A program made the position numbers and the translations under genes. A DNA stretch of 6,600 bases from Candidatus Roizmanbacteria bacterium (lineage in GTDB: Bacteria; Patescibacteriota; Microgenomatia; UBA1406; GWC2-37-13). The notes beneath the pieces are model-generated. The model saw only the letters and a program-made list of their open reading frames with translations. It was not told where the DNA came from and did not search any database. This document shows positions 1 through 6,349 of this stretch, one piece after another. The stretch lies in the NCBI GenBank assembly GCA_016186235.1, contig JACPMD010000124.1, forward strand, positions 1 to 6,600, in the 5' to 3' direction. Position 1 is the first letter of the stretch, and every line of letters starts with the position of its first letter.

Positions 1-1062
1 CCTGTACGTTATGGGTTTTTCTTTTTGGGGTAAAAGTAGACTCATCCTTCGATCTCTTTTATTAATTCGCTCTATGAAGACTTTTATCTTTTGACCTGTT
101 TCGAGTTCTTCTTTCCCAGTGAGTTTGCTTATATGGATAAGTCCTTCTACGCCTGGCTCTAGTCGTACAAAGTAACCATATCGTTCTTTTCGTACTACCT
201 CTCCCTCTATTTCTTTATCTTTGGGATATTTCTTCTCGATATCCTCCCACGGATCTTGTGTGAGTCGTTTGAGTGATAAGTTAAGTTTTAAATCTTGTGT
301 ATTTTTTTCCACAACCAAGACATCGAGCATTTCGCTAACCTTGACGTAATCAGCAGCGCTTGACACTTTTTCCCAAGAAATTTCTGATATGTGAATGAGG
401 CCTTCTACTCCTTCAACTTCACAGAAAATGCCAAACTCTGAAACTCCTAATACTTTTGCCTTATATTTTTTTCCAACTTTGATTTTATCGAAACGGCGCT
501 TTAGTTCTTTCTGAGAGATCTTAAGAACGGCGGCCTTCTGAGAAACGACAAGACGATTTTTCTCTTCATCTACCTCTAAAATTTTTACCTTGGTTTTTTG
601 GCCCTGTAGTTTCTCTGGATTATTGATGTACTCTTCAGTCAGCTGAATTTTTGGAATAACGCCTCGTATTCCCATGAAATCTATGAACACTCCGCCCTTT
701 CCATATTCGCCGCACACCACTTCTATTTCTTCTTCTTTTTCTTTTTTTTCATTAAGTATCTCCCATTTTCCTTTGTGGAAAAACTTTCGTAGCGAAACTA
801 CAGGAAACCCCTCCTTTGACTCAGGAGTAATAATCCTCACCCTCACAACACCACCTTCTTTTAAGTAGGGTGAATAGGATGTGATTTCCTTGAGTTCAAG
901 ATCTCCTAACACCGCGTACGCCTTTGCTCCTATGTCAAAAAGCACTCCCTTTTTTGACAACGTTACTATTTTGGCGTCTAGTTCTTCTCCTTTTTTAAGA
1001 AAGGGGGGCTTGTGTTTTTTAAGAAGCGCCTCCATTGGGTGCGCAGATATTTTTCTTGGCAT
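1..1062 (-). CDS. rpsA: 30S ribosomal protein S1 (C-terminus cut by window edge)
   Basis: The frame is open from an ATG at 1062 to base 1 with no stop, giving the first 354 residues. I see four S1 (OB-fold) RNA-binding repeats at about residues 24-93, 111-177, 196-266 and 282-345. Repeats 3 and 4 are the most typical, each with a GVEGLIHIS motif, and repeat 3 ends in LNLSLKRL followed by DPWEDI, a hallmark of S1. In the ribosome S1 binds mRNA on the 30S subunit and helps initiation. Four repeats is fewer than the six of E. coli, but short forms are common in other phyla; the remaining C-terminus may be short. The start is fixed by an AGGAGG motif 10 nt upstream, and repeat 1 begins about 20 residues later. 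It is divergent from the recombinase-like gene. Another S1-repeat RNA-binding protein is possible but less likely. Confidence 0.92.
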   Translation of the reverse strand, partial: MPRKISAHPMEALLKKHKPPFLKKGEELDAKIVTLSKKGVLFDIGAKAYAVLGDLELKEITSYSPYLKEGGVVRVRIITPESKEGFPVVSLRKFFHKGKWEILNEKKEKEEEIEVVCGEYGKGGVFIDFMGIRGVIPKIQLTEEYINNPEKLQGQKTKVKILEVDEEKNRLVVSQKAAVLKISQKELKRRFDKIKVGKKYKAKVLGVSEFGIFCEVEGVEGLIHISEISWEKVSSAADYVKVSEMLDVLVVEKNTQDLKLNLSLKRLTQDPWEDIEKKYPKDKEIEGEVVRKERYGYFVRLEPGVEGLIHISKLTGKEELETGQKIKVFIERINKRDRRMSLLLPQKEKPITYR

Positions 1063-1072
1063 CAAATGTTTT

Positions 1073-1078
1073 CCTCCT
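1073..1078 (-). promoter_or_regulatory. Shine-Dalgarno of the S1 gene
   Basis: On the minus strand the S1 ATG is preceded, after 10 nt, by AGGAGG inside GAAGGAGGAA. This is the strongest ribosome-binding site in the window. It contrasts with most other starts here, which have none. Confidence 0.8.
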
Positions 1079-1101
1079 TCAGATTCAAGACAGGAGATAT
1101 A

Positions 1102-1130
1102 ACTATAACAAACTCAAGCAAAAAAAACAA
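1102..1130 (-). promoter_or_regulatory. Promoter of the S1 gene (extended -10)
   Basis: Read on the minus strand: TTGTTT at 1130-1125, a 17-nt spacer, then TATAGT at 1107-1102 preceded by TGT, which makes an extended -10. The predicted start near 1095 would give a leader of about 33 nt that contains the Shine-Dalgarno. The -35 matches consensus at only three positions, so the call rests mainly on the -10 and the spacing. Confidence 0.55.
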
Positions 1131-1143
1131 GCCAAATTGCTAC

Positions 1144-1172
1144 TTGATTTTGATGACTTGGTGGTGTATATT
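1144..1172 (+). promoter_or_regulatory. Promoter of the recombinase-like/RNase H operon
   Basis: TTGATT (1144-1149), a 17-nt spacer, and TATATT (1167-1172). An overlapping alternative is TTGATG (1150-1155), 16 nt, TATAGG (1172-1177). Either places the transcription start at or within a few bases of the ATG at 1183. Only a weak AGGG (1175-1178) lies before the start, so the mRNA is probably leaderless or nearly so. Confidence 0.55.
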
Positions 1173-1182
1173 ATAGGGTACT

Positions 1183-2055
1183 ATGGATAATGTATTACTT
1201 CCGAATCTACTTGAGAAGTTTGTCAATCACTTAAAATCTCAGGGAAAGTCAGATTTTACTATCGTTGCCTATAGGAAAGATCTTGAACAATTTATAGGCT
1301 TTTTAACAGGGAAAGAAAAGAATGATATTAGAGAAGTAAAGAAAGAGGACATCGATGCATTTATCGCAAAACTGCTTCAAGACAACTATACAAAAAAGTC
1401 TGCGTCCCGGAAACTCAATTCAATTCGAACTTTTTTTAGATACCTTAAAAATGAAGGAGTAATCGAGCAAAATCCATCACTCGACGTATCTCATCCCAAA
1501 TACACGCAGTCGCCTCCACGAATATTCAGCAAGCTCGAGTATAGGGCGCTACGCGACGTTGCCAAAGAGGATCCTCGAACTTATGCTCTTGTCGAACTTT
1601 TATTGCAAACAGGGATTAAAATTGGAGAACTTGCCAACTTAAGGCTTTCTGATATTAAGGATTCTTCCCTTTATATTCGTTCCTATGGAAAAAACCCTCA
1701 AAGAGATGTTCCGCTCAATAAAGCGGCAAAAAAATCTCTCCAAGAATACTTAAAAGCAAGAGGCGGAAACGCCCAAAACGGCCAAGACGATCACTTCTTT
1801 ATCACGCGAACTGGACACCCTCTTCTTATTCGAAACATCCGACAAATCATCACGCGTTGCTTTCGTGAAGTTGGGATTGAAAACGCAACGGTGAATGATC
1901 TACGAAATACCTTTATCGCCTACCAACTCATGAATGGCGCATCAATTGAGTATATTGCTAAAGTTGTAGGACATAGGCGCCTCTCCTCTACCGAACGCTT
2001 CCTCAACCTCGTCAAGGAAGAGACCGAAAGAAAAGAAAAGTTAGGAGAATTATGA
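1183..2055 (+). CDS. XerC/XerD-like tyrosine recombinase homologue lacking catalytic residues
   Basis: The 290 residues match the Xer family in length and layout. An N-terminal SAM-like core-binding domain spans about residues 6-92 and the catalytic-fold domain about 112-280. Family motifs are recognisable: QTGIKIGEL, GKNPQRDVPL, VNDLRNTF and VVGHRRLSSTERF. Active members use Arg, Lys, His, Arg, His and a Tyr nucleophile. Here those positions read K146, K170, N238, R241, H264 and F273, so the first Arg, the second-motif His and the nucleophilic Tyr are all replaced. The flanking residues are intact and the frame is unbroken, so this looks like a maintained protein that binds DNA but cannot cut and rejoin it. 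Degenerate Xer homologues (for example XerD-like proteins of streptococci) are a precedent. It overlaps the RNase H start by ATGA, implying coupled translation. I gave no xerC or xerD symbol because the activity is doubtful. Confidence 0.9.
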   Translation: MDNVLLPNLLEKFVNHLKSQGKSDFTIVAYRKDLEQFIGFLTGKEKNDIREVKKEDIDAFIAKLLQDNYTKKSASRKLNSIRTFFRYLKNEGVIEQNPSLDVSHPKYTQSPPRIFSKLEYRALRDVAKEDPRTYALVELLLQTGIKIGELANLRLSDIKDSSLYIRSYGKNPQRDVPLNKAAKKSLQEYLKARGGNAQNGQDDHFFITRTGHPLLIRNIRQIITRCFREVGIENATVNDLRNTFIAYQLMNGASIEYIAKVVGHRRLSSTERFLNLVKEETERKEKLGEL

Positions 2056-2537
2056 ATCTTAACGTTTTCACCGATGGGGGTTCGATCAACAACCCGGGTC
2101 GAGCTGCAATAGCTTACATCGTCTCCTTAAACGACAAATTGCTCTTTAAGTTCTCAAAACGAATTGGAATCAACACGAACAATTTCGCCGAATATTCAGC
2201 TCTCGTTGGCGCGCTGGAATGGGTAAAGAATAATACGAAACTCCTCTACTCACAAAATAATGCATGCGTTAGAATTCCCCTGCGATTTTTAGGAAATCGG
2301 AGACAGGAGTCTGCTCAAATTACAAAAGTGGTTTGTCATTCCGACTCTCATTTAATGGTCAATCAACTCAATGGACTATTTAAAGTAAAAAATTCTGTGA
2401 TCCGCGACTTTATAATGAAGGTTCGAATCGTAGAGCAGGAGGTAACTATACCAATACTTTATAAATACATTCCCAGGGAGCAAAACAGATTTGCCGATTC
2501 GCTCGTTAAGAAGGAACTGCTATTCTTACCGGCATGA
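2052..2537 (+). CDS. Type I ribonuclease H with an in-frame insert
   Basis: This 161-residue protein has the RNase HI fold signatures: TDGGSINNPG near the N-terminus, TNNFAEY, CHSDSHLMVNQLNGLFKVK and PREQNRFADSL. The four metal-binding acidic residues are present as D8, E47, D98 and D149, so it should cleave the RNA strand of RNA-DNA hybrids (primers, R-loops). The motif style resembles the archaeal/YpdQ-like branch rather than E. coli RnhA. The distance from E47 to D98 is 51 residues, against roughly 24 in relatives I recall; the extra 26 or so residues (about 64-89) coincide with a palindromic DNA insert. The ATG lies in an ATGA overlap with the upstream gene and has AGGAG (2043-2047) 4 nt before it, so the two genes are probably coupled. 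The last 32 bp overlap the end of convergent dnaN. Confidence 0.9.
   Translation: MNLNVFTDGGSINNPGRAAIAYIVSLNDKLLFKFSKRIGINTNNFAEYSALVGALEWVKNNTKLLYSQNNACVRIPLRFLGNRRQESAQITKVVCHSDSHLMVNQLNGLFKVKNSVIRDFIMKVRIVEQEVTIPILYKYIPREQNRFADSLVKKELLFLPA
2241..2318. repeat. Putative palindromic element inserted in frame in the RNase H gene
   Basis: These 78 bp (26 codons, residues 64-89) are the part of the RNase H gene with no counterpart in ordinary RNase HI. They contain an imperfect hairpin: CGATTT (2283-2288) pairs with AAATCG (2294-2299) around TTAGG, and CCTG (2279-2282) pairs with CAGG (2304-2307), with GAGA (2300-2303) bulged. Weaker complementarity continues outward to about 2270 and 2313. 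The insert peptide is Arg/Gln/Asn-rich (GNRRQES). Similar short strings flank it (ACGAAA at 2235-2240, ACAAAA at 2322-2327), possibly a decayed duplication. Only one copy lies in this window, so its repeat status is inferred. Confidence 0.5.
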
Positions 2538-3606
2538 TGATATGAAGAAAGTGTTCGCCGTCTTCGGTTTTAAAAACGACTGGGGCATCCGGTCTAAGCA
2601 CCTCTATAATAATTTTTTTGCTTTTGCTGTGATTGAGAAAATCGAGTAGAAATTTGTAGTTAAAAGCCACTTTCTGCTCATCCCCGTCTATTTCTGCTTC
2701 TTGAAAGGCATTGTTTTCGTCTCCTGCGTCGGTTTTCGGCTTGATCCATATGCCATCCTTTACCATCTGTACAATTACGATATTAGAAAAGTCTCGAGCA
2801 AAAACAGAAATGAGTTTAATATTTCGTAAAAATTCCTCTGCTTCGATAGTCACCGTTGTCCTTCTTTCCGTGGGAATTACCTTTTCAAAGGGGGGAAAAT
2901 CTCCTTCTATGAGGCGTGAAAAAAATTCTGCATTATCAAGAGAAAACACAATCATCTTTTCATTTTTTAAGTAACAGAACTTCACTTCTTTTTCCTCCTT
3001 AATGAATTGAAGAACCTCGCTCAAAAAATCCGCGGGAATAATAACCGATGGAATATCTATTTCTTTTTTGGCTTTTACTAAGGAAAGTCTGAAACCGTCG
3101 GTTGAGACAATGATGAGATTTTCCTGGGTAAGAAAATTCACTCCCGTGAGAACCGGCCTTGTTTCATCGTAAGATGCTGAGAACAATACTATTGGAAGGT
3201 TTTTGAGTAAAAAATCCGTCTTTATTGTCTGTCCTTTTTCCTCTATTTTAGGAGGAAGTGGAAAGTCTTCTTTAGCTATAAGAGGAAAGTTTCCCTTCGT
3301 TTTTCCAGAGACAATAGTTATTTGTTTTTCCTTTACCTCGATCTCGAGTTTCCCAGGAGGTAAGAAATTTATATATTCGCTTAGTTTTTTTGGCTCAATT
3401 ACAACTTCTATTTCTTTTTCTAACTCTACTTTTAAACTTGTATGAAGATATGAACTAAGATTGCTCGAGTAAAAGTGTAAAGAATTTTTCGTTCCTTTGA
3501 GTAAGACGCCTTGTAGAGTTAACGAAGAAGTTAATTTGGTTGAGGTAAAATGAGACGCGAGTGTTAATTTTTCAAGGAATAACTCTTTGTTTATGATGAA
3601 TTTCAT
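2506..3606 (-). CDS. dnaN: DNA polymerase III subunit beta (sliding clamp)
   Basis: The 366-residue length and sequence match the beta clamp, the ring that tethers the replicative polymerase to DNA and docks other replication and repair proteins. Recognisable segments are the N-terminal MKFIINKELF, SYDETRPVLTGVNF (145-158), STDGFRLSL (168-176), SRLIEGDFPPFEKVIP (230-245) and the C-terminal IIMPVRI (356-362). These fall across the three repeated clamp domains. The usual protein ends right after the MPMRL-like motif; here four more residues (AVPS) follow, encoded inside the overlap with the RNase H gene. The ATG at 3606 fits the family N-terminus, but no clear Shine-Dalgarno precedes it. It follows dnaA in the same direction after 121 bp. 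Confidence 0.98.
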   Translation of the reverse strand: MKFIINKELFLEKLTLASHFTSTKLTSSLTLQGVLLKGTKNSLHFYSSNLSSYLHTSLKVELEKEIEVVIEPKKLSEYINFLPPGKLEIEVKEKQITIVSGKTKGNFPLIAKEDFPLPPKIEEKGQTIKTDFLLKNLPIVLFSASYDETRPVLTGVNFLTQENLIIVSTDGFRLSLVKAKKEIDIPSVIIPADFLSEVLQFIKEEKEVKFCYLKNEKMIVFSLDNAEFFSRLIEGDFPPFEKVIPTERRTTVTIEAEEFLRNIKLISVFARDFSNIVIVQMVKDGIWIKPKTDAGDENNAFQEAEIDGDEQKVAFNYKFLLDFLNHSKSKKIIIEVLRPDAPVVFKTEDGEHFLHIIMPVRIAVPS

Positions 3607-3727
3607 TTATTTCTTTATTAAAGATATTAATAGTAGTATTAGCGCTTGGGTATAAAAAAATAAAAAACAGAAGGGATTTTCAAGACAAAGAGAATTGAAA
3701 TTTTTCCGTGTTTATAAGGAGTGGATA
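3607..3727. other. dnaA-dnaN intergenic region: candidate origin unwinding module
   Basis: This 121-bp AT-rich gap holds a run of TAN trinucleotides, TATTAATAGTAGTATTAG (3625-3642), then CGCT, then TGGGTATAA (3647-3655), which differs from the DnaA box TGTGNATAA at one base. A second one-mismatch box, TGTTTATAA, lies at 3709-3717, and a weaker AGTGGATAT at 3720-3728, all in the same orientation. In Bacillus-type origins, DnaA-trios ([T/A]A[G/A] read 5' to 3') lie beside a DnaA box across a short GC-rich step and mark where strands open. Two of the six triplets here are TAT and do not fit that rule. The region must also contain any dnaN promoter; TTTAAT on the minus strand, 10 nt before the dnaN ATG, is a weak candidate. 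Confidence 0.5.
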
Positions 3728-5056
3728 TCATGTTGAAAGACCAAGAGATGTAATAATCCCATCAATCTCCTGCTTAATCGTCGGATTTTTTATAATGAGC
3801 CCGCTCATTTTATCAACAGCATGGATTACCGTGGTGTGATCCTTTCTCTTTAAAAGGAAGGCAATCTCTTCCAGTTTTAACTTAAGGTGACTTCTGAGGA
3901 TGTACATCACGATTTGCCGCGGCAAAACGATACTTTCATTTCTGACCGGGCCACGAAGATGAGACTGTTTAACATTGTAATAAGAGCAAACTGTTTTTAT
4001 GACATCTTGAGGAAGAACGCGGAATGAGTTGGTTTTTTGTCTTTGGGAGAAGAAAAGATCCACGGCTTCTAGGTCTATTTTTTCTTTCTGGCCCAAGATT
4101 TTTGCATATAAGGAAAGAAGTGTTCCTTCTAGCCCGCGCGTATCGGTTATCTGTTCGGCGATGATTTTTGCGGCGTCGATATCGATTTCTATATTTTTCT
4201 CTCTTGCTTTGATGAGAAGAATCGCCGTTCTGAGTTCAAAATCCGGCGGCTGTATATCTACAATGAGTCCGCCCGAAAATCTCGACCGAAGACGGTCCTC
4301 TAAGTTTTTAATTTCTGACGGCGGCCTGTCTGAGGTGAGAATAATCTGTCCTCCGGCAGAAACAACAGAGTTAAACGTGTGGAAAAACTCTTCTTGTACG
4401 GTTTGTTTTCCTGCAATGAACTGGACGTCATCAACAATAAATAGAGAGAGTTTTCGATATTTTCTTCTGAAACGAGGCGTTGATTTTTCCCTAATACCCT
4501 CGATGAGCTCGTTAGTGAACTGATCTCCTGGACAGAAAAAAACCTTTTTACTTGTATCTTTTTGTAGAACCTTTCTTGCGACCGATTGAGCGAGATGTGT
4601 TTTTCCTACCCCTACCCCGCCATAAAAGAGAAGGGGGTTATATGAGTGTCCTGGATTATCTGCGACGGCCTGAGCTGCGGCAAACGCAACCTGATTTGTC
4701 GTTGAGACCGCAAAGTTTTCGAAGCTATATTTTGCATGCAACCCAGCTTGATAAAAAACATCCTCAAGAGAAGGCTGAAAGGAAAGAAGCGGCGCCTCTT
4801 TCGGAATTTTTTTAGAGGGGATTACCACAAGTTCAACAGACATTTTTTTATGAGTAAAAGCAGAGAGCGTCAGTTCTATCTCGCTCACTTTCTTCTCCAA
4901 AAAGAATTTAAATGCTTGGTTGTGGCAGCCGAGGATTATTCTATTTTCGCTCAGCTCGATGGGTTTTAACTGCTTAAGAAGCGAGTATAAAACCGGAATT
5001 TTTTTCTTGTTTGTCTCTAAAGATTTAAGAAAGCCAGTCCAGAAAGCAGACAGCAT
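3728..5056 (-). CDS. dnaA: Chromosomal replication initiator DnaA
   Basis: The 442 residues cover all DnaA parts: domain I at about 1-78, a very short linker domain II (about 79-92), the AAA+ domain III (about 93-325) and the DNA-binding domain IV (about 345-442). In the AAA+ domain I see Walker A GGVGVGKTH (146-154), Walker B LFIVDD (205-210), sensor 1 ILTSDRPP (239-246), the box VII arginine in RSRF (259) and sensor 2 R307 in TRGLEG. Domain IV has the helix-turn-helix and the DnaA signature RKDHTTVIHA (404-413). ATP-bound DnaA multimerises on DnaA boxes and opens the origin. The usual tryptophan after SRF (SRFEWG or SRFGWG) is replaced: this protein reads SRFSGG. The ATG at 5056 gives a normal N-terminus; no Shine-Dalgarno precedes it. 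DnaA boxes in its own promoter suggest autorepression. Confidence 0.98.
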   Translation of the reverse strand: MLSAFWTGFLKSLETNKKKIPVLYSLLKQLKPIELSENRIILGCHNQAFKFFLEKKVSEIELTLSAFTHKKMSVELVVIPSKKIPKEAPLLSFQPSLEDVFYQAGLHAKYSFENFAVSTTNQVAFAAAQAVADNPGHSYNPLLFYGGVGVGKTHLAQSVARKVLQKDTSKKVFFCPGDQFTNELIEGIREKSTPRFRRKYRKLSLFIVDDVQFIAGKQTVQEEFFHTFNSVVSAGGQIILTSDRPPSEIKNLEDRLRSRFSGGLIVDIQPPDFELRTAILLIKAREKNIEIDIDAAKIIAEQITDTRGLEGTLLSLYAKILGQKEKIDLEAVDLFFSQRQKTNSFRVLPQDVIKTVCSYYNVKQSHLRGPVRNESIVLPRQIVMYILRSHLKLKLEEIAFLLKRKDHTTVIHAVDKMSGLIIKNPTIKQEIDGIITSLGLST

Positions 5057-5168: not shown

Positions 5169-5801
5169 ATGCGAAAATACACTCTTGACGCCAATCTGTT
5201 TTTTAACATGGAGGCTGACTTGGGATTGGGAGAAAAAACTGAAGAAGTGGTAACGCAGCTTGCCAGTATGGGTAAAAAATTAAAGACAAGTAAAAAAGCC
5301 GAATTTTTTATGCCGCCACGAGTAGTCGATGAGTTTTTGAGTTTTTTTGACGACAAAGGACAACCGTTTATAAAAGATTTTTTGTCTGTGATTACTGTTC
5401 AGTCTCCTGACCTAGGGAAGCTTGCTTTCCCGGCGCAAACATTTTACAAGCTCGTTGATGATATACGCTTAAGAAGCTATAAGGGTTTAAATATCGGCGA
5501 GGAGGAAATTGAAAAAGCCGGCAGGCTTATGATGGGAAAAAAAGAGCTCGCTACAAAAGAATTTCAAATACAGATAGGCGAGGTTATCAAAAAATTTCGC
5601 GCCCGGTACCGCCAGGCTACCCGATTCGGTTTCTTAGATAGCCTAGCAGATCTCGATCTTATTACCCTAACAAAAGAACTCGGTGGAATTTTAGTATCAA
5701 CTGATGAAGGAGTAATTGGTTGGGGAAGAGTTTTTGGCGTTAAAGAGGCGCCGCCTGAGGTGTGGAAGAAGCAGTTGGACGACCTACTTGCGGAGTCTTA
5801 A
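5169..5801 (+). CDS. RNA-free ribonuclease P, HARP type (PIN domain, former UPF0278/COG1458)
   Basis: I recognise the family formerly called UPF0278 or RNA ligase partner, now known as HARP (homologues of the Aquifex protein-only RNase P). Members are PIN-domain proteins of about 190-230 residues that cut the 5' leader from pre-tRNA without an RNA subunit. This one has 210. Family-like segments are YTLDANLFFN (4-13), FFMPPRVVDEF (46-56), the helical middle FPAQTFYKLVDDIR (87-100) leading into SYKGLNIGEEEI, and RYRQATRFGFLDSLADLDLI (146-165) with GGILVSTDEGVIGWG (172-186). PIN-type metal-binding acids are D7, D157, D161, D163 and D179, spaced as I recall for the Aquifex enzyme; E55 is also conserved-looking. 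It is divergent from dnaA, with no RNA ligase gene beside it in view. Another PIN nuclease is possible but the match is specific. Its last 62 bp overlap the convergent membrane-protein gene. Confidence 0.86.
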   Translation: MRKYTLDANLFFNMEADLGLGEKTEEVVTQLASMGKKLKTSKKAEFFMPPRVVDEFLSFFDDKGQPFIKDFLSVITVQSPDLGKLAFPAQTFYKLVDDIRLRSYKGLNIGEEEIEKAGRLMMGKKELATKEFQIQIGEVIKKFRARYRQATRFGFLDSLADLDLITLTKELGGILVSTDEGVIGWGRVFGVKEAPPEVWKKQLDDLLAES

Positions 5802-6315
5802 CTTCTTCTTCATCAGGAATAAGGCGTGAAAGCGCATCTACCATTTTATCGGTGAAACTTCTCTGTGGTTTTTCTTGATAGATCAAGTGTTCAGAGAGAA
5901 TGAGCGTGAGATGCTTTTTTAACTCTTCATTCGGTACCACCATATAAGCGTGGTAGTAGTAAGGCGCATGTCCCACGAGCGTTAAGACAAAAAATCCAAA
6001 TCGCGTTGTGAAATAGAAATGTGAGATTCCTTCCCAGCGCAAGGTGATTCCTGTTGTCTCAATGCCAAACTTGGTAATCTTGTTCTCTACTTCAGGCGGA
6101 GGAGTTATGGTCAAAACGTAAAAAAGAAATAGCAGAGACCAAATAGGAATAAGAAGAATCTTGTCGCCAAAAAAGAGAATAATAAGCGATAAAAGCAATG
6201 CTACGGTTAGGTAAAAACGAAGTACTAATTTAGACCTTTTTTTATAGGGCCGAAGCGGCGCCTTCCAGGAAAATAATACTTGAGGGTTTTCTGTCTTTGT
6301 TTGCTGATCATTCAT
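5740..6315 (-). CDS. Conserved-looking two-helix membrane protein with a C-terminal beta-rich domain
   Basis: Starting at the ATG at 6315 the protein has 191 residues. A basic N-terminal stretch (SWKAPLRPYKKRSK) precedes two membrane helices at about 32-49 and 53-70, followed by PPPEVENKITKFGIETTGITLRWEGISHFYF and further beta-like strands to about residue 145. The hairpin plus small beta domain with a central W-E-x-I motif resembles bacterial PH-like (bPH, YdbS/YcxB-type) membrane proteins. That resemblance is inference; I do not recognise a named function. The soluble part is probably cytoplasmic. The last 20 residues are Pro/Thr/Ala-rich and are encoded almost entirely within the overlap with the RNase P gene. 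A TTG at 6342 would add nine residues, but the predicted promoter lies across that stretch, so the ATG is preferred. Confidence 0.82.
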   Translation of the reverse strand: MNDQQTKTENPQVLFSWKAPLRPYKKRSKLVLRFYLTVALLLSLIILFFGDKILLIPIWSLLFLFYVLTITPPPEVENKITKFGIETTGITLRWEGISHFYFTTRFGFFVLTLVGHAPYYYHAYMVVPNEELKKHLTLILSEHLIYQEKPQRSFTDKMVDALSRLIPDEEEVKTPQVGRPTASSTPQAAPL

Positions 6316-6320
6316 ACTAT

Positions 6321-6349
6321 ATTCTCGACTTTTTTCGAGCAAAAGTCAA
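6321..6349 (-). promoter_or_regulatory. Promoter of the two-helix membrane protein gene
   Basis: On the minus strand TTGACT (6349-6344), a 17-nt spacer, GAGAAT (6326-6321), then five nt to the ATG at 6315. This favours a leaderless mRNA and rules against the upstream TTG start. The -10 matches four of six positions. Confidence 0.45.
6327..6347. repeat. Inverted repeat in the promoter spacer (possible operator)
   Basis: GACTTTT (6327-6333) and AAAAGTC (6341-6347) are perfect 7-bp inverted arms around a 7-nt centre. A second overlapping pair, CTCGA/TCGAG, lies at 6324-6328 and 6335-6339. The repeats fill the spacer of the minus-strand promoter, where a regulator could act. A chance AT-rich repeat cannot be excluded. 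Confidence 0.35.

Follow-up and report, generated by a model that had tools for sequence, protein, structure and literature searches.

The window, i.e., the whole stretch of 6,600 nucleotides analyzed here, belongs to contig C104 of a genome that comprises 820,033 bases in 162 contigs and is estimated to be ~80% complete. Its gene order is S1-domain protein (reverse strand), tyrosine recombinase, RNase HI, DnaN (reverse strand), DnaA (reverse strand), PIN_5 protein and a last ORF without Pfam match; a 200-aa ORF at 5740–6342 on the reverse strand, for which no Pfam match was found, shares ~60 bases with the PIN_5 gene in a tail-to-tail arrangement. The RNase HI gene (2052..2537, forward strand; 161 aa, stop codon included, according to the ORF list) overlaps the stop of the recombinase gene with its start (ATGA at 2052–2055), while its 3′ end lies within the tail of dnaN in a tail-to-tail overlap of 32 bases (2506–2537). 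In genome G054, the RNase H gene is adjoined by an ORF that ends in FLHIIMPV and a few further residues and resembles the window's dnaN. The RNase HI ORF product was matched by the Pfam families RVT_3 (5.1e−10) and RNase_H (6.3e−08), the comparison with PDB retrieved 41 distinct sequences at E ≤ 0.01 with RNase H 3u3g at the top, and the organism-named database proteins nearest to it among the matches listed are those of Candidatus Roizmanbacteria, so that the genome likely belongs to a relative of this group. Four columns were invariant in 38 sequences, i.e., D8 (codon at 2073..2075), E47 (2190..2192), D98 (2343..2345) and D149 (2496..2498, all on the forward strand), which we take, from what is known of the RNase H family, to be the catalytic residues. 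By this D-E-D-D set and the predicted fold, the ORF at 2052–2537 is assigned to RNase HI.

Between E47 and D98, the initial annotation had delimited an in-frame insert of 26 codons (2241..2318, forward strand) and had claimed a spacing about 26 residues longer than usual. The ORF confirmed that the insert keeps the frame and contains no stop codon, and the spacing is indeed longer than usual, the claimed excess being slightly too high: against the closest insert-free relatives, which have 25–28 residues in the loop, the net excess amounts to 21–24 codons, with borders that are uncertain by a few codons. From AEY (E47) to DS (D98), the window's protein has 49 residues, as compared to a median of 27.5 (range 24–49) among the database homologues fitted by the landmark pattern, 152 of 161, from which the length statistics were taken; in these 152 proteins, the D8–E47 stretch was 35–36 residues long and the D98–D149 stretch always 40. 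The family loci (28 of 30 parsed) had lengths of 35–37 for D8–E47, 40 for D98–D149 and 23–55 for E47–D98. Nearly all the length variation between D8 and D149 is held by the E47–D98 loop, and in RNase HI the loop leading from the helix to D98 is situated at the end distant from the active site. In an AlphaFold model (75 sequences), 10-residue blocks had pLDDT values of 91–98 over residues 1–60 and 91–160 and of 60–71 over residues 61–90 (the last residue was also less confident), and the insert appeared as a low-confidence predicted loop between helix 43–61 and strand 92–97, with a short strand, likewise of low confidence, at residues 73–76. This predicted strand counts in favor of an ordinary lineage-specific loop that never was a palindromic repeat and was extended by slippage, by duplication or point by point, with its core under weak selection for a small surface element, an explanation that we regard as a plausible contender and weigh further below.

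The insert had also been described as an imperfect hairpin, and the pairing is real: at 2280..2302 (no strand assigned), the arms 2280–2288 (CTGCGATTT) and 2294–2302 (AAATCGGAG) pair at 8 of 9 bases around a 5-nt loop. The structure appears weak. RNA folding energies were ordinary for the 78-nt insert stretch (56 of 200 shuffles as good, z −0.53) and for the entire E47–D98 stretch (127 of 200 shuffles, z 0.31) and marginal for the 38-nt core (20 of 200 shuffles, z −1.22); with DNA energies, none of 200 shuffles matched the 30-nt core and 2 of 200 matched the 40-nt core, both cores having been picked post hoc. Equally good folding places in the 6600-base window, the insert included, numbered four at 30 nt, six at 38 nt and 19 at 78 nt. 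Stems of six bases enclosing loops of 3–8 had 16 start positions. ATGAC, the motif of RPE-4/-6/-7 (a subset of the Rickettsia palindromic elements, RPEs), is absent from 2241–2318, and so is GTCAT. The weakness of the hairpin is another point in favor of an ordinary loop. A candidate deletion footprint, a flanking direct repeat of 17 nt at 76%, was rejected because its spacing of 70 is no multiple of three, and it is probably due to chance.

Of 7997 proteins scored against a profile of five carriers of the insert, 6896 reached E ≤ 0.001, and the 120 top-ranking ones were examined. Six of these best 120 of 6896 carry the insert, namely the window's own protein (P0001), P0002–P0005 and P0121, and share the core C..[IV]P.R (in the window's protein the peptide CVRIPLRF, 2265..2287, forward strand), in which C, P and R are identical in all six while the rest has diverged. 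Both states of the gene, with and without the insert, were found when orthologues were compared as the initial annotation had proposed; the insert, which keeps the frame of a conserved gene, is absent from some orthologues, and carrier P0121 and the insert-free P0011 are identical at 133 of 142 positions (94%) outside one clean gap of 20 residues, the same gap that separates P0004 from P0011. Such an all-or-none difference between near-identical homologues speaks against an ordinary loop, whereas the sameness of C, P and R in six copies would suit it.

In a tree calculated with the loop excised (52 rows, P0121 included), the carriers need four changes, which also weighs against an ordinary loop, and a single carrier clade was rejected (AU p 0.0007, for a group defined by the trait itself). 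All six carriers are contained in a group of 12 rows (support 80/75), the other six rows of which are non-carriers, and within this group one gain plus three losses costs the same as four gains. In an earlier tree (60 rows), five carriers were scattered (AU p 0.0026); since the second tree gathers the six carriers within 12 rows, we now favor a single gain with subsequent losses, and since the carriers do not form one clade, repeated gains are also allowed. The identity of the inserts (16–72%) is lower than that of their flanks (60–88%) in all 15 pairs, and insert divergence tracks flank divergence (rho 0.65 over 15 pairs that are non-independent), a pattern that fits an old insert wearing faster than the enzyme and, as divergence in step with the gene, fits an ordinary loop as well.

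Two further explanations can be weighed on these data. The insert could be a coding element with a site preference that is mobile to this day and made several independent entries at the same RNase H codon, for which the lack of one carrier clade (AU p 0.0007), the four changes on the tree and a presence that differs between 94%-identical proteins can be adduced; we consider this unlikely, as all six carriers belong to one 12-row group for which one gain and three losses are an equally short account, as the inserts are more diverged than the flanks that they track in every one of the pairs, and as no other copy was found in the window's own genome (G000) or, for the readable part of its insert, in G054. 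It could also be a functional extension (e.g., a contact for the substrate, the clamp or another protein) that was gained once and kept where needed, as the conserved C, P and R core and the tail-to-tail overlap of the gene with dnaN might suggest, but it is missing from very close relatives and the model confidence within it is low, which makes this reading improbable, even more so than the preceding one.

Recurrence of the insert within its own genome, a possibility raised in the initial annotation, was not borne out: a single copy was found by the 90-nt, core-peptide and profile searches. Of CGGAGACAGGAGTC and CCCCTGCGATTT, the sequences named there, the pattern search was run with CGGAGACAGGAGTC and found this 14-mer with ≤ 2 mismatches at 6 places in the genome, the window's own included, as compared to 5 for the reversed control. 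The sole match of the 90-nt insert in the ~80% complete genome was itself, a degenerate pattern for the core peptide matched the insert alone, and a profile of five insert peptides had no match in this genome beyond the window's insert. A short-word BLAST of the insert against 40 of the 162 contigs gave no match > 13 bp, its comparison with 1,383,025 bases of other loci gave nothing above the level of 20 shuffled queries, and no similarity was found to the verified repeats of relatives that are described below. Over 72 family genomes, the insert-peptide profile was convincingly matched by a single further sequence, the G054 RNase H (E 2.3e−5), the remaining matches having E-values of 0.019 or worse. 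For the readable part of the G054 insert, no further copy was found in G054 and 82 of 200 shuffles fold as well; a hairpin common to the window and G054 was rejected, as this readable part folds like shuffled sequences. When the insert peptide was sought in unrelated proteins only the query was recovered (one candidate), a search that says little because exact words were required and the proteins had ~88–282 aa. The searches lend no support to a mobile element specific to the window's insert, as no further copies were found in them. An ordinary loop is favored by the single copy found in these searches; the initial annotation had named, as refuting its repeat reading, an insert unique in the genome and present with diverged sequence in all orthologues, and this largely applies to the window's copy, which is single in the genome as searched, with a diverged version in some orthologues and not in all.

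The five longest of the loops parsed from loci L008–L118 are those of the window, G065 (L013), G024 (L010), G064 (L020) and G007 (L012 = L043), and the fold z was −5.98 for G065, −7.69 for G024, −0.66 for G064 and −2.87 for G007, as compared to a mean of −0.29 for 91 loops under 34 residues, 5 of which were below −2. The RNase H loop inserts of G024, G065 and G007 were verified as dispersed palindromic repeats. The insert of G024 (VILSESDVTSDESRD), used as a 60-nt query, had 8 matches in its own genome including itself, five of them over 47–52 positions at 77–96% and two of 18–20 bases. One of the copies is read in the frame of a 742-aa ORF that has an O-antigen ligase domain (Wzy_C), where it encodes almost the same peptide; among the five further long copies one is intragenic, L148 lies outside long ORFs, and L145, L146 and L149 are located, by reading, ahead of likely gene starts. 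For the G007 insert, which starts with CGTCAT and ends in ATGAC, four further BLAST stretches of 24–59 bases at 92–98% were found in a sample of 308,309 of ~900,000 bases, and in this sample none of the copies lies in a long ORF beyond RNase H. The GTCAT start is common to the G024 and G007 inserts. No matches were obtained with the G024 query in G065 and G007 or with the G065 query in G007, so that the three inserts are without detectable kinship.

The insert peptide of G065 begins with HPLPEGGP, and its repeat had 4 matches in G065, itself included, and 20 in the genus-mate G064, the best reaching up to 94% over 98 bp. These copies occupy 24 loci, of which 5 are too close to a contig end and 19 assessable; 11 of the 19 (58%), the RNase H copy among them, are well within ORFs of 150 aa or longer, as compared to 679 of 920 random 60-nt stretches from these loci (74%). 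The repeats are thus not drawn to genes, being found inside long ORFs less often than random stretches. The reading frame is shared, by reading, by 10 of the 11 intra-ORF copies, and four of six frames are open in the L013 copy. Among their in-frame hosts in G064 and G065 are GatB, MiaA (two copies), a Pol X-like protein, LeuRS and another class I tRNA synthetase (ValRS by reading), TatD, transketolase and a citrate synthase/CoA-ligase protein. Compared with the solved GatB 3h0l, the GatB copy corresponds to ~32 extra residues (query 222–265 vs. chain 200–211). The G064 GatB (L225, ORF 826–2295, forward strand) contains, besides the HPLPEGGP repeat, a second foreign-looking stretch, VIASAAKQSNSKEIATSTTSPRND, of which ~15 residues are missing from the solved GatB, and the two copies in the G064 MiaA (L226, ORF 1278–2306, forward strand) are in different frames.

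The G064 loop insert (L020) has an LPAG-type look and was left out of the three verified repeats because it has a single near copy (L243) in the loci examined and an ordinary fold. Short foreign-looking inserts (LPAGKAG, FAKASADK, HPPAGG) were also seen in the same RNase H loop of P0113, P0114, P0126 and P0071; LPAGKAG and FAKASADK, which we take to be common peptides of Patescibacteria, occur at the loop spot in P0113 and P0114.

Perfect stems of at least 10 bases were found 8 times in 40 of the 162 contigs of the window's own genome. In the first 20 contigs together with the window, stems of at least 10 bases numbered 3 vs. 1, 1 and 2 in Markov controls, and those of at least 12 bases 2 vs. 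0, 0 and 0. A perfect palindrome of 28 bp (L162, 333–360, contig C12) contributes the in-frame peptide QAMPAGRHGF to a 577-aa ORF that is cut by the contig end and has a thioredoxin-like C-terminal domain and, by reading, membrane segments. Another palindrome of 19 bp, GTCCGATGTAACATCGGAC, is the core of the G024 insert and is read in frame, as SDVTSD, within a Pol IV-like ORF of the own genome (L170, ORF 2917–4086, reverse strand, contig C24); with one mismatch allowed, it has matches in 7 of the 72 family genomes, as compared to zero for the reversed control. In the Pol IV-like ORF, SDVTSD directly precedes QMELF, which presumably resembles a clamp-binding motif. The LPAG-type palindrome CCTGCCGGCAGGCA was present in 38 of the 72 family genomes (control 0), with up to 33 forward matches per genome, and such palindromes are rarer within genes: of 30 loci, sampled at one per genome, 8 had them in long ORFs vs. 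379 of 600 random stretches.

Genes are invaded in an RPE-like manner in this lineage, with the RNase H loop as a hot spot, as follows from the loop repeats of G024, G065 and G007, the in-frame copies of G064 and the two in-frame palindromes of the own genome. The protein-invading palindromic repeat proposed in the initial annotation is thereby supported at the same loop in G024, G065 and G007 and in the Pol IV-like and thioredoxin-domain membrane protein ORFs of the own genome, though not in the window's copy itself. That the same loop of relatives takes demonstrable dispersed repeats is also the third point against an ordinary loop. A palindromic-repeat origin appears to us the likeliest single account of the insert, still short of being probable in its own right and closely followed by an ordinary lineage-specific loop. 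We tentatively read the insert as an old, decayed palindromic-repeat insertion in a hot-spot loop, predicted to form a tolerated, flexible surface extension. As no second copy of it and no similarity to the verified repeats were found and its hairpin is weak, its descent from a repeat is something that we infer. A palindromic repeat would have entered the RNase HI loop, possibly by transposition-like copying, and given rise to the insert; the loop may accept such sequences because it is away from the active site, and one old gain would then have been followed by several (about three) in-frame losses. With slightly more reserve, we suggest that the loop is a recurrent landing site in Roizmanbacteria-like Patescibacteria within a broad RPE-like invasion of essential genes, and that the window's insert could be an old fossil in which selection later acted on the C..[IV]P.R core.

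The present data place palindromic repeats in frame within genes for translation and DNA handling in another group of bacteria with small genomes. Protein-coding palindromes are known from Rickettsia, Wolbachia and Methanocaldococcus and, as REPs, from some other bacteria (PMC3767692, PMC2996958, PMC3733652), and no paper reporting them in Patescibacteria was found among the matches listed in the openly licensed full-text literature. One small enzyme shows filled and empty insert sites side by side, so that the insertion of a peptide, its tolerance, wear and loss become directly testable on one gene.

Compared with ordinary RNase HI loop variation, the window's insert is alike in being in frame, in diverging with the gene and in not having been found to recur, whereas the loop is set apart by the proven dispersed repeats that three relatives carry in it. 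A second parallel is offered by intragenic REPs (GTAG- and CGTC-tagged), described as palindromes of 20–40 bp within ORFs, many of them for DNA repair or tRNA enzymes, with different REPs at about one site in the recB of two Xanthomonas (PMC3733652); the likeness lies in palindromes within ORFs and in different ones at one site. The RPEs (RPE-1 to RPE-7) and the Wolbachia palindromic elements (WPEs) are described, in PMC3767692 and PMC2229807, as dispersed and inserted in frame in conserved genes, where they encode a solvent-exposed peptide, and RPE-4/-6/-7 and the WPEs are reported to have the motif ATGAC; for RPE-4/-6/-7, different groups may occur at orthologous sites, which the authors ascribe to hot spots or a common origin (PMC3767692). 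The window's insert differs from RPEs in being single-copy as searched, ~63 nt net, without ATGAC and weakly palindromic, and the host lineage is Roizmanbacteria-like and not Rickettsiales; the systems are likened here by their features. The relatives' repeats, on the other hand, are like RPEs and WPEs dispersed, palindromic and in frame in conserved genes as extra peptide: the inserts of G024, G065 and G007 have dispersed copies and a strong hairpin, copies lie in several genes for the G065/G064 and G024 types (not for the G007 type, in the sample), and the G007 insert ends in the same ATGAC as RPE-4/-6/-7 and the WPEs.
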